Shown here one piece after another: positions 2,181 to 7,300 of a stretch of 7,813 bases of DNA (positions are counted from its first letter, which is position 1; the number at the start of each line of letters is the position of its first letter). Below the pieces are notes generated by a model. That model worked only from the letters and a program-made list of their open reading frames with translations. It made no database searches and had not been told where the DNA came from. The position numbers and the translations under genes are program-made. Source of the DNA: a bacterium (GTDB lineage Bacteria; UBP15; UBA6099; JAJRTR01); NCBI GenBank assembly GCA_024278215.1, contig JAJRTR010000158.1, positions 1-7,813 on the forward strand. Direction: 5' to 3'.

Positions 2181-4208
2181 ATGAAAAAAATAACTTTCAA
2201 ACATTTCTTTGTATTTGTTCTGATTGCAGTCAGCGGCTGCGTCGCAGTGTCGTGCGGGCGCGGCAACGGCTGGAAAAAAACCGATCACAAAGTGCTGGTG
2301 CTGGGCTTCGACGGAATGGACCCGAGACTGCTGGCTAATTTTATGAACAGAAGCGATTTTCCGAACTTCGATAAGTTGATTGCGGTCAACGGAATACGCA
2401 CACTCGCCACGAGCACCCCGCCGCAGAGCCCGGTGGCGTGGTCGAATTTCATTACCGGCAAGAATCCCGGCGGACACGCGATATTCGATTTCATCCACAG
2501 GAACCCGGAGAATTATCAGCCTTACCTTTCCATGTCACGCGCCGAGAACCCGGCCCGCACTCTGAAACTTGGCAATTATGTGATTCCTCTGGGAAAGGGT
2601 GATGTCAAGCTGTTGAGGAGGGGGACGGCCTTCTGGGAATTGCTTGTCGCGAGAAATATTCCAGCGACGATATTCAGGATTCCGTCGAATTTCCCGCCGG
2701 TGCCCGCAGGCAGGTCTATTGCGGGGATGGGAACGCCCGACCTGCTCGGCGGATACGGCTCGTTTTCATACTATACCGAGGAACCGCCCGCGCCGGACGC
2801 GGATGAGATCACGGGCGGAACGATCACACAGATAACGCCCGGAGCCGATGGGAAATATACTTTTTTCCTTACGGGGCCGCCGAATACGATGTTGAAAGAC
2901 AGGCCGACGACGAAGATAGAAATAAATGTGTGGAAGGATTCGACAAATCCTTCCGCCGAGATAAAGATCGGCGGCGACACGCTTGTGCTCGAAGAGGGGC
3001 AGTGGAGCGACTGGGTGCGGGTCGAATTCGAGATGATTCCCCACCTTTCATCCGTTTCCGGTATATGCCTTGTTTATCTCAAAAGCGTGCATCCTTATCT
3101 TAAGATTTATATATCGCCTGTGAATATCGATCCGGTAAAGCCTGCGATGCCTATCAGCAACCCGCCGGAGTACGCGGCGGAACTCGCCCGCGAGACCGGA
3201 CTCTACTATACACAGGGTATGCCCGAAGACACTAAAGCGCTCGATCACGGCGTTTTCACCGACATGGAATATCTCGAGCAGACAAAAATATTTCACGACC
3301 ACATCGAAAAAATGTTCCATTACGAATTGAACCGTTTCCGTTCCGGGCTTCTTTTCTTTTATTTCTCGAACACCGACCTCGGCTCGCACATGTTCTGGAG
3401 CGCGATGGATAAGAGCCATCCGGGATACGGACTACGCACGGAAGAAGCGCGTGATACAATATTTAAAATATATCAGAATATGGACCGCATGTTGGGCATC
3501 GCCATGGAAAAACTCGATCCAGGCGATACGATCATAGTGATGTCCGACCACGGGTTCGCCTCCTTCGCGCGTGGATTCAACCTTAATACGTGGCTTAAAG
3601 AAAACGGATACCTTGCGCTGATCGACGAGTTTTCGCAGGGCGATCAGGATTTCCTCGCGAATGTCGACTGGTCGCGCACAAGCGCTTACGCGCTCGGTTT
3701 TAACGCGCTGTATATCAACCAGATGGGACGCGAAGGTGAAGGGATAGTGCCTGTCGGTGACGCGAAAAAGCGGTTGCTCGAAAAGATAAGAGATGGGCTG
3801 TTGCAGGTGCGCGACCCCCTGACCGGCAAACAGGTGATTACGCATGTATATGTTGCTGATGAAATATATAGTGGAAAATACGTGAAAGATGCACCGGACT
3901 TGATTATAGGATACAACCGCGGCTACCGCGCATCCTGGGAAACAGCTATAGGCAGGGTGCCGCGCGAGCTGTTGTCCGACAACAAACAGAAGTGGACCGG
4001 CGACCATTGTATAGACCCGGCACATGTGCCGGGGATCGTACTCAGCAACAGAAAAATTAAATATGAACGCCCTTCGCTTTACGACCTCCCTGTAACTATT
4101 CTTAATGAGTTCGGAGTGGAGAAGAATCCGGATATGATCGGACACAATATCTTTGTGGGGGAGAAAAAACCGCCACGCAATGAAATCGAGCCTTTCGGGG
4201 AAAAGTAG
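2181..4208 (+). CDS. Lipoprotein alkaline phosphatase superfamily protein, tandem paralog
   Basis: A 675-residue paralog of the preceding enzyme, alignable over almost its whole length. Shared blocks include LG-[LF]-DGMDP, SPVAWS, the LKLG...IPLGK block, the NIDP..PA.PIS block, MSDHGF, and the VDWSRT..YALG block. The active-site set is complete: Asp44, Ser83, Asp399 and His403 (DLGSH), Asp456 and His457, and His609 (GDHC). The N-terminus is a short basic then hydrophobic segment with two possible lipobox cysteines, Cys20 (AVSGC) and Cys25 (VAVSC). This predicts a lipid-anchored, extracytoplasmic enzyme and differs from the first copy, which has a YIGPGAG-helix anchor. The insert at about 205-300 has the same IGG...W.W.V pattern as in the first copy. 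ATG 2181 is chosen because it starts the lipoprotein signal; no strong Shine-Dalgarno is visible, which fits translational coupling over a 10-base gap. Substrate unknown; phosphodiesterase, phosphomonoesterase or head-group transferase are all possible. Confidence 0.94.
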   Translation: MKKITFKHFFVFVLIAVSGCVAVSCGRGNGWKKTDHKVLVLGFDGMDPRLLANFMNRSDFPNFDKLIAVNGIRTLATSTPPQSPVAWSNFITGKNPGGHAIFDFIHRNPENYQPYLSMSRAENPARTLKLGNYVIPLGKGDVKLLRRGTAFWELLVARNIPATIFRIPSNFPPVPAGRSIAGMGTPDLLGGYGSFSYYTEEPPAPDADEITGGTITQITPGADGKYTFFLTGPPNTMLKDRPTTKIEINVWKDSTNPSAEIKIGGDTLVLEEGQWSDWVRVEFEMIPHLSSVSGICLVYLKSVHPYLKIYISPVNIDPVKPAMPISNPPEYAAELARETGLYYTQGMPEDTKALDHGVFTDMEYLEQTKIFHDHIEKMFHYELNRFRSGLLFFYFSNTDLGSHMFWSAMDKSHPGYGLRTEEARDTIFKIYQNMDRMLGIAMEKLDPGDTIIVMSDHGFASFARGFNLNTWLKENGYLALIDEFSQGDQDFLANVDWSRTSAYALGFNALYINQMGREGEGIVPVGDAKKRLLEKIRDGLLQVRDPLTGKQVITHVYVADEIYSGKYVKDAPDLIIGYNRGYRASWETAIGRVPRELLSDNKQKWTGDHCIDPAHVPGIVLSNRKIKYERPSLYDLPVTILNEFGVEKNPDMIGHNIFVGEKKPPRNEIEPFGEK

Positions 4209-5746: not shown

Positions 5747-5796
5747 TTGTCGCGGTAACGATGAAAAGAAGTCCGAAAATGCTTTCTCCCGCATAT

Positions 5797-5941
5797 TTGA
5801 TTCGTGTGTAATAAATCATTTTCCAAAACAATGTTTTTGTCAAAGTCGGTCAAGATGCTTTAAAATACTGAATGCACGTTCGTTATAGTCGATCATTATT
5901 AATTGACAATTGTCATCTTCGACTTATTGCACACGAATCAA
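5797..5941. repeat. Long inverted repeat, MITE-like unit of 145 bases
   Basis: The arm at 5797-5817 (begins TTGATTCGTGTG, ends AATC) is the reverse complement of 5921-5941 with 19 of 21 positions matching. The bases TAT occur immediately outside both arms (5794-5796 and 5942-5944) and could be a 3-base target duplication, though that is weak in AT-rich DNA. The interior codes for nothing. A short non-autonomous element or a transcription-termination or regulatory structure would both fit. Confidence 0.55.
5904..5915. repeat. 12-base perfect palindrome, possible operator
   Basis: TGACAATTGTCA is a perfect palindrome lying just inside the right arm of the larger inverted repeat. It includes most of a TTGACA -35-like hexamer (5903-5908), but no good -10 follows at 16-18 bases. 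It could be a dimeric regulator site or only part of the repeat. Confidence 0.3.
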
Positions 5942-5966
5942 TATTGTGATGTTTCAAAAGTTCTCG

Positions 5967-6106
5967 GTATCCGTTCACAGGTGACTGTTCGCAACGGTAC
6001 ATCCGAAATTCCTGGAATGCAACGACTGTGTCGTTGCAACTATGAAGAAGTCGCATTTTGCAAAAACTGATGTTTTTGCGTTCCAGGATTTTCAGATAGT
6101 ACCGTT
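5967..6106 (+). repeat. Nested, multi-hairpin inverted-repeat element
   Basis: The outer arms 5993-6022 and 6077-6106 are near-complementary over about 30 bases, with one indel and three mismatches; the outermost eight (AACGGTAC/GTACCGTT) are perfect. Inside are two perfect hairpins: a 9-base stem with a 3-base loop (TGCAACGAC at 6018-6026, GTCGTTGCA at 6030-6038) and an 8-base stem with a 4-base loop (GCAAAAAC at 6060-6067, GTTTTTGC at 6072-6079). Each hairpin shares bases with the outer stem, so they cannot all form together. AACGGTAC can also pair upstream with GTATCCGTT (5967-5975, one bulged T), around a small ACAG-GTGA-CTGT hairpin. It may be a repetitive palindromic DNA element or a structured RNA; it ends 158 bases before the translin start. 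Confidence 0.6.
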
Positions 6107-6155
6107 AAAGTATTATGCCCAATGCACCACGTGAACGGCGCGGTCTGTTGCCTAT

Positions 6156-6161
6156 TATAAT
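6156..6161 (+). promoter_or_regulatory. Possible -10 element for the translin gene
   Basis: TATAAT matches the sigma-70 -10 consensus exactly and lies 103 bases before the translin ATG. No convincing -35 hexamer sits 16-18 bases upstream, so this is a weak call. Confidence 0.25.
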
Positions 6162-6264
6162 GCATATCATGAACAAATTGCGAATAATGTGATAAGATAA
6201 CAACGACAAAAGGATATTATAGAAAAGAAAGGTTTCAGGATACAACTGAAATACAGGGTGAGAC

Positions 6265-6879
6265 ATGGATCTGGATAAACTGTTCAAAGAAGCCGAGAGA
6301 CTGAAGGATCATTTCGACGCAATAGATAAGGACAGGGAAGAATGCTACAAGATCGCGCGCGAATTGCGCCGGATGTCGGTCAAATCGGTCAGGGACGCGC
6401 ATAACAAAAAATACGATCTGGCGAGAAAACAGATAGAAGACGGAAAGATATACGCGCGGCAGCTCGTGAAAAAGCAGCAGAGGTTCGGCTTTGTGGAAGA
6501 AGCGCTCCAGGAACATGCCGAGGCCGCCTTCACGCTCGCATTCCTGCTGGGCGAAGTGCCTCCCACCCAGGAAGAGATCGGCACGAACGAACGCGCATAT
6601 CTTCTCGGTCTGGCCGATACAATCGGAGAAATGCGGCGTAACACTCTTAACCTGCTTCGAGATGACAGGATCGAAGAAGCAAAAACTTTTATGAACCTTA
6701 TGGACGATCTTATGGGCATAATCGTAAGGTTTGATCACACGGACGCAGTGTTGCCCCTGAGGCGCAAGCAAGACCAGATGCGAGGCGTGATCGAGCGCAC
6801 ACGTGGCGACATGACGAATATTATCTGCCAGCAGCGGCTCGAAAAAACGCTACGCGAAAGAGTTCCCGTTACCGAGTAG
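6265..6879 (+). CDS. Translin family protein
   Basis: A 204-residue, almost entirely helical protein of the translin/TRAX family, in which octamers bind and cleave single-stranded RNA or DNA. The family's conserved blocks appear in order: DREECYKIARELRRMSVKSV (about 23-42), the internal VEEALQEHAEA block (about 77-87), AYLLGLADTIGEMRRNTL (111-128) and LRRKQDQMRGVIERTRGDMT (165-184). Glu83 and Glu86 in QEHAEA and Asp118 in GLAD match in position the acidic residues that form the nuclease centre of TRAX, so a catalytically competent enzyme is plausible. The length matches archaeal translins. ATG 6265 is preceded by AGGGTGAG, a good ribosome site. The gene stands alone, with more than 550 gene-free bases on both sides and no second translin/TRAX copy in the window, so a homo-oligomer is likely. 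Its bacterial role (RNA turnover, tRNA processing or nucleic-acid defence) is not known from this context. Confidence 0.92.
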   Translation: MDLDKLFKEAERLKDHFDAIDKDREECYKIARELRRMSVKSVRDAHNKKYDLARKQIEDGKIYARQLVKKQQRFGFVEEALQEHAEAAFTLAFLLGEVPPTQEEIGTNERAYLLGLADTIGEMRRNTLNLLRDDRIEEAKTFMNLMDDLMGIIVRFDHTDAVLPLRRKQDQMRGVIERTRGDMTNIICQQRLEKTLRERVPVTE

Positions 6880-6960: not shown

Positions 6961-7044
6961 GGTAGTGTCGTGTCAACGATGAAAAGGTGTAAGAGCCAAC
7001 TGCAAAATTCTGATTCGGCTGCGGTCGGCTGCAATTGTCCATAG

Positions 7045-7092
7045 CCCACATATTTCCGGATTTCTTTGTGAGAAATCCGGGATAGCTGTGGG
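7045..7092 (+). repeat. Nested inverted repeat with a 10-base perfect stem
   Basis: CCGGATTTCT (7056-7065) and AGAAATCCGG (7071-7080) form a perfect 10-base stem with loop TTGTG. Outside it, CCCACA (7045-7050) is complementary to TGTGGG (7087-7092). The right outer arm also belongs to the next hairpin (7088-7104), so the two are mutually exclusive. Confidence 0.6.
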
Positions 7093-7148: not shown

Positions 7149-7300
7149 CCTTTAATTCCAATCACTGTTTACTTAAGGTCATGCCAGGTCCCCAGGCGGG
7201 ACGCCTGTGCTACTCTGTATCTCACAACATCGCGGCAGGGTACGACAGGTGTTTCGCCTGTCGTAAATAGCATTAAGTAAACTGTGTTGCCTTTAATTCC
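7149..7300. mobile_element. MITE-like palindromic unit with flanking direct repeats
   Basis: An 11-base direct repeat CCTTTAATTCC occurs at 7149-7159 and 7290-7300. Just inside, imperfect terminal inverted repeats lie at 7163-7178 (CACTGTTTACTTAAGG) and 7271-7286, matching at 14 of 16 positions. The interior has two hairpins: CAGGCG-GGA-CGCCTG (7193-7207) and an 11-base stem with one G-T pair and loop TTT (7241-7251 with 7255-7265). Terminal repeats, direct flanks and no coding capacity fit a non-autonomous transposable element or a REP/BIME-type interspersed repeat. No transposase is in the window. The gap of three bases between direct and inverted repeats means the ends are uncertain. Confidence 0.55.

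Follow-up and report, generated by a model that had tools for sequence, protein, structure and literature searches.

A conserved TRAX-type member of the translin superfamily in the candidate bacterial phylum UBP15

The window analyzed here, i.e., the whole 7,813-nt stretch of DNA, constitutes a 7.8-kb contig whose forward strand carries an open reading frame at positions 6265-6879. This frame begins with ATG, encodes 204 residues free of internal stops, and is a TRAX-type gene of the translin superfamily. Further upstream, positions 86-2170 and 2181-4208 encode two large proteins of the type I phosphodiesterase/nucleotide pyrophosphatase family in tandem, and the N-termini of both look like signal or membrane anchors. 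Most of the spacer immediately upstream of the TRAX gene is made up of two dispersed repeat families, A (5797-5947, ~150 bp, with 21-nt inverted repeats) and B (5966-6109, ~144 bp, with a long-hairpin fold of -56.3 kcal/mol). Both occur in many copies, mostly 86-97% identical for family A and 85-92% for family B, and together they account for 43 matches genome-wide. At ~145 bp the two families are MITE-like, and both are able to form long hairpins. In the downstream spacer, positions 7163-7286 hold a 124-nt hairpin-forming stretch (-52.4 kcal/mol) with 14-nt inverted ends that is possibly a third repeat element. A first-pass annotation of this DNA had described the gene as standing alone between repeat-rich spacers and had taken this as consistent with transfer or with an independent role in RNA metabolism. 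The repeats are indeed there, with two families upstream, but since these families are dispersed throughout the genome they are uninformative about how the gene was acquired. An Rfam search of the window matched no RNA family. Likewise, no neighbor common to the UBP15 genera emerged as an operon partner or as a hint at a substrate; the adjacent genes vary from genus to genus, and among them are those for oxidoreductases, an ankyrin protein, and carbamoyl-phosphate synthase.

The assignment of the 6265-6879 product to its superfamily is supported by both sequence and predicted structure. A phmmer search of the PDB aligned residues 11-184 with AfTRAX of Archaeoglobus (3zc1; E = 1.3e-12), and NeqTRAX of Nanoarchaeum equitans (5jr9) was matched at an E of about 1e-6. 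The Pfam Translin model (PF01997) gave an E of 7e-5 at 23.3 bits, 2.6 bits short of its gathering score of 25.9, and a profile built from the family retrieved TRAX chains and no translin chains at E ≤ 0.01. AlphaFold2, run on a 73-row alignment, returned a model composed of helices only (pLDDT 97.1, pTM 0.90), whose top structural match was AfC3PO (Z 21.8; 2.2 Å over 185 residues), followed by NeC3PO (Z 20.9), the human TRAX chain 3pja_J (19.4), and Drosophila TRAX (18.4). A Foldseek search of the model agreed in placing C3PO/translin on top, while unrelated helical proteins stayed below Z 9. The protein is thus closer to TRAX (Z 17-19) than to eukaryotic translin, whose chains reached a Z of about 16. 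A very different identity is implied by the NCBIfam PRK14562 models (NF011156-NF011161), which are named "haloacid dehalogenase superfamily protein" and match the UBP15 protein at E-values down to 1.1e-39, though under their curated cut-offs; they also match all 73 family members. However, the predicted fold is devoid of strands and its best structural matches are all C3PO/translin, so that a haloacid dehalogenase has practically no chance of being the correct identity and is regarded as refuted. Considering that the name is contradicted by the all-helical prediction, it is apparently an annotation error. The translin-family membership noticed in the first-pass annotation is confirmed, and the product is almost certainly a TRAX/translin-superfamily protein.

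Four acidic residues mark the predicted active site, i.e., Glu83 (codon at 6511-6513), Glu86 (6520-6522), Asp118 (6616-6618), and Glu122 (6628-6630), all on the forward strand. The first three share alignment columns with the acids of AfTRAX, as expected from the earlier statement that they align with the TRAX nuclease center; Glu122 has to be added to them, and the full set (E, E, D, E) is common to AfTRAX and NeqTRAX. Glu83 and Glu86 are predicted to be metal-binding or catalytic acids and, together with Glu122, show no variation in an alignment of 73 diverse members. Residue 118, a predicted catalytic acid, is Asp in 6/6 UBP15 and 32/32 archaeal proteins as well as in those of Archaeoglobus and Nanoarchaeum, whereas it is Glu in 91 of the 95 other bacterial members. 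Similarly, UBP15 and most archaea have Gln at position 82, where 94/95 of the other bacterial members have Lys. A catalytic role for Asp118 would fit the PDB pair 3zc0 and 3zc1, which differ by Ala versus Asp at the aligned position. In the model, Glu83 and Glu86 sit on a predicted helix spanning residues 75-94 and Asp118 and Glu122 on one spanning 109-132, and the alignment of the acids together with the overall superposition supports their putative convergence within the fold. With its archaeal-type active site, the UBP15 gene adds a new and well-conserved member from a candidate bacterial phylum to the TRAX branch.

The contig belongs to a 4.55-Mb MAG that is 95% complete; a search of this MAG for a 16S gene found none. 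This MAG falls in the same order as UBP15_UBA6099. Since NCBI taxonomy lists UBA6099 under Bacteria candidate phyla and ADurb.Bin236, of the same order, under unclassified Bacteria, the host is a bacterium of candidate phylum UBP15. Independent MAGs of this order carry orthologues on contigs of their own, which rules out an archaeal contig or contamination and bears out the bacterial context that had been read from the window. No match was found in a plasmid or phage collection. Overall, the gene occurs in 6/7 UBP15 genomes and in all four genera, and orthologues in the five other genomes are 54-61% identical to it. The seventh genome, G001, is 97% complete and lacks the gene, probably through loss; given how nearly complete this genome is, the gene must be dispensable in at least one lineage. 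Comparisons of orthologues gave a dN of 0.046 against a dS of 0.46 for loci L035 and L036 and 0.002 against 0.10 for L036 and L037, i.e., dN/dS ratios of about 0.1 and 0.02, respectively. The gene is resident in its genome and under purifying selection, and it is old, conserved in UBP15, and native to the phylum.

The host genome contains one intact copy of the gene. The sole other match lies on contig C97 and is a disrupted piece of the N-terminal region; it is 88.6% identical to window positions 5793-6384, which include both repeats and the first 40 codons, and to positions 6989-7045 (L017, 70-126 and 282-875). The rest of its coding part contains stops, and the fragment looks like a decayed duplicate of the spacer and the 5' end of the gene with an internal deletion. 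Hence, the separate translin and TRAX genes that characterize eukaryotic C3PO were not found here. As the assembly is 95% complete, a second family gene may have been missed, although this is unlikely.

Translin-family genes, best known from animals and archaea, are not confined to UBP15 among bacteria. Matches occur in 82 of 151 sampled Chloroflexota genomes, in 16 of 386 genomes drawn broadly from bacteria, and in 106 of 150 in a draw centered on a Methanomassiliicoccaceae archaeon. In a scan of named genomes with a family-alignment query, at least 154 loci could be confirmed, and the 80 listed are mostly from Chloroflexota, with some from Actinomycetota and Armatimonadota. From the Chloroflexota count and the members in the other two phyla it follows that bacterial translins are common in some phyla. 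The first-pass annotation had considered bacterial members little studied; our searches turned up hardly any publications on bacterial TRAX proteins. Such members are not exceptional, given these counts and a 2012 paper by Gupta and colleagues, cited in the literature consulted, on the superfamily in eubacteria, archaea, and eukaryotes. Bacterial TRAX is easily missed, owing to the doubtful name of the NCBI models and to scores that often lie near or under the Pfam cut-off. One divergent TRAX in a bacterial bin (L033/L186; G073:C64:1421-1921) is Nanoarchaeum-like, with Gln82, Asp118, and a GELVRK motif, and could either lie on a contaminating archaeal contig or belong to a further lineage of bacteria. 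Among the matches listed, thiE lies directly upstream of the translin gene in at least 21 Chloroflexota loci, and at least 35 loci of Chloroflexota or Actinomycetota have a membrane pyrophosphatase downstream; the order thiE, translin, membrane pyrophosphatase is conserved in many Dehalococcoidia (the Chloroflexota loci of L040-L112). This neighborhood is no pointer to an RNA role.

To place the UBP15 proteins, our main tree comprised 74 bacterial and archaeal sequences. The UBP15 sequences formed a single clade (support 100/99) and the other bacteria a separate one (100/98), while archaea lay on one side of a 99/90 split and UBP15 on the bacterial side. In an earlier tree that included AfTRAX, the long branch of that protein landed among the bacterial rows. 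The first-pass annotation had called for a phylogeny against archaeal and eukaryotic proteins; its archaeal half, run here, yields the clade and split just described, and a tree constrained to unite UBP15 with euryarchaeal TRAX is worse by only 2.5 log units, a difference too small for its rejection (p-AU 0.45). The UBP15 proteins thus represent a deep, separate lineage, whose origin may be ancestral bacterial or an ancient archaeal gift. Recent horizontal transfer is unsupported and is ruled out by the presence of the gene in all four genera, by a GC3 of 0.624 that equals that of the two upstream phosphodiesterase-type genes, and by the tree; the genome-wide scatter of the repeats lends it nothing either. 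What is left of a transfer is an ancient event only, in which the gene would have come from archaea before UBP15 diversified. The archaeal-type Asp118 and the absence of Lys82, which set UBP15 apart from most bacterial members, and the constrained tree favor such an event. Yet the presence in 6/7 genomes and all four genera of the phylum, the neighbor-like GC3, the dispersed repeats, and the position of the clade in the best tree all speak against it, and we consider it doubtful, if conceivable.

An archaeal connection of another kind is raised by the tRNA-Cys genes of the phylum. Of the seven UBP15 genomes, four, the host included, have a SepRS that scores above the curated cut-off, six have such a SepCysS (in the host at G000:C65:4219-5310), and all have CysRS. 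UBP15 thus encodes an archaeal-type indirect Cys-tRNA route beside ordinary CysRS, and the phylum is absent from the main text of a 2022 survey. In the host genome and in G001, an archaeal Thr-tRNA editing domain is fused to the N-terminus of SepRS; such fusions lie at L204:8772-10685 (G000:C22, the host) and, elsewhere in UBP15, at L207:9176-11137. Desantisbacteria-like bacteria and a Nitrospirae bacterium are reported to have fusions of this type. Since the TRAX gene adjoins the SepRS gene in many archaea (PMC5424206, PMC8762117), TRAX, SepRS, and SepCysS might conceivably form a functional set in which TRAX trims or surveys tRNA. UBP15 would then hold an anciently acquired archaeal-style tRNA module of TRAX, the SepRS-editing fusion, and SepCysS, with TRAX acting in tRNA-Cys processing or quality control, and the phylum would make it possible to test in bacteria why the TRAX genes of archaea adjoin SepRS. 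Several observations weigh against the set. TRAX and SepRS do not share a contig in UBP15, SepRS occurs without TRAX in G001, CysRS is kept in every genome, and the Chloroflexota neighbors of TRAX are thiE and a membrane pyrophosphatase. Nor did the translin loci searched contain a convincing SepRS beside TRAX; one weak match lay 5 kb off, and most archaeal flanks covered 1.5-2 kb. Co-occurrence of TRAX and SepRS in UBP15 is suggestive only, and we regard a shared tRNA-Cys function as improbable, as we do the acquired module.

The interpretation that we favor, with reasonable though not full confidence, is that the gene encodes a catalytic-type, homo-oligomeric, metal-dependent RNase that is native to UBP15 and would act on small RNA by-products; this combines the sequence and model data with analogy to characterized systems. 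Working on its own as a catalytic homo-oligomer appears fairly likely from the sequence and the model. Since the search of the genome returned one intact copy and no translin gene to pair with it, self-assembly is the most likely arrangement, and it would produce a closed barrel (octamer) as described for archaeal C3PO. Glu83 and Glu86 from one helix and Asp118 and Glu122 from a later one would hold a divalent metal inside the cavity, and this center would cleave single-stranded or short duplex RNA. A protein of the same fold need not be a nuclease. Eukaryotic translin binds RNA and DNA and lacks the TRAX acids, and the UBP15 protein might similarly be an oligomer that binds RNA or ssDNA, chaperoning or storing RNA rather than cutting it. 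This is unlikely in our estimation, since four TRAX-type acids are retained under purifying selection and both fold and profile are nearer to TRAX than to translin. For the favored RNase, small RNAs or by-products of tRNA processing are a guess made by analogy; its likeliest cellular role would be the removal of small RNA by-products, e.g., the 5' leaders of precursor tRNAs. In eukaryotes, C3PO is believed to break down the 5' fragments that RNase P releases (PMC7586317), and in N. equitans oligomerized TRAX alone degrades RNA (PMC9051087).

Among known systems, human and Drosophila TRAX in C3PO (3pja, 3axj) resemble the UBP15 protein in fold (Z 18-19) and are found by the family profile; they form a hetero-oligomer with translin, whereas no second intact family member was found in the UBP15 genome. 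AfC3PO/AfTRAX (3zc0, 3zc1) is a single-protein system that shares the fold over 185 residues and the four acids, although identity is only 26%, the UBP15 host is bacterial, and the assembly and activity of its protein are predicted. NeC3PO (5jr9, 5jrc, 5jre) likewise shares fold and acids at about 20% identity, and NeqTRAX deviates at positions conserved elsewhere, e.g., Arg124 and Arg173. The PRK14562 proteins of Chloroflexota, Actinomycetota, and Armatimonadota show near full-length homology at about 31-39% identity and retain the three invariant glutamates, but they have Lys82 and mostly Glu118 where UBP15 has Gln82 and Asp118, they form their own clade, and in many Chloroflexota they are flanked by thiE and the membrane pyrophosphatase, neither of which was seen beside the UBP15 gene. 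Asp118 in UBP15 and the predominant Glu118 of other bacteria form a natural pair with which to test the residue requirements of TRAX RNases and the role of these enzymes in cells without RNA interference.
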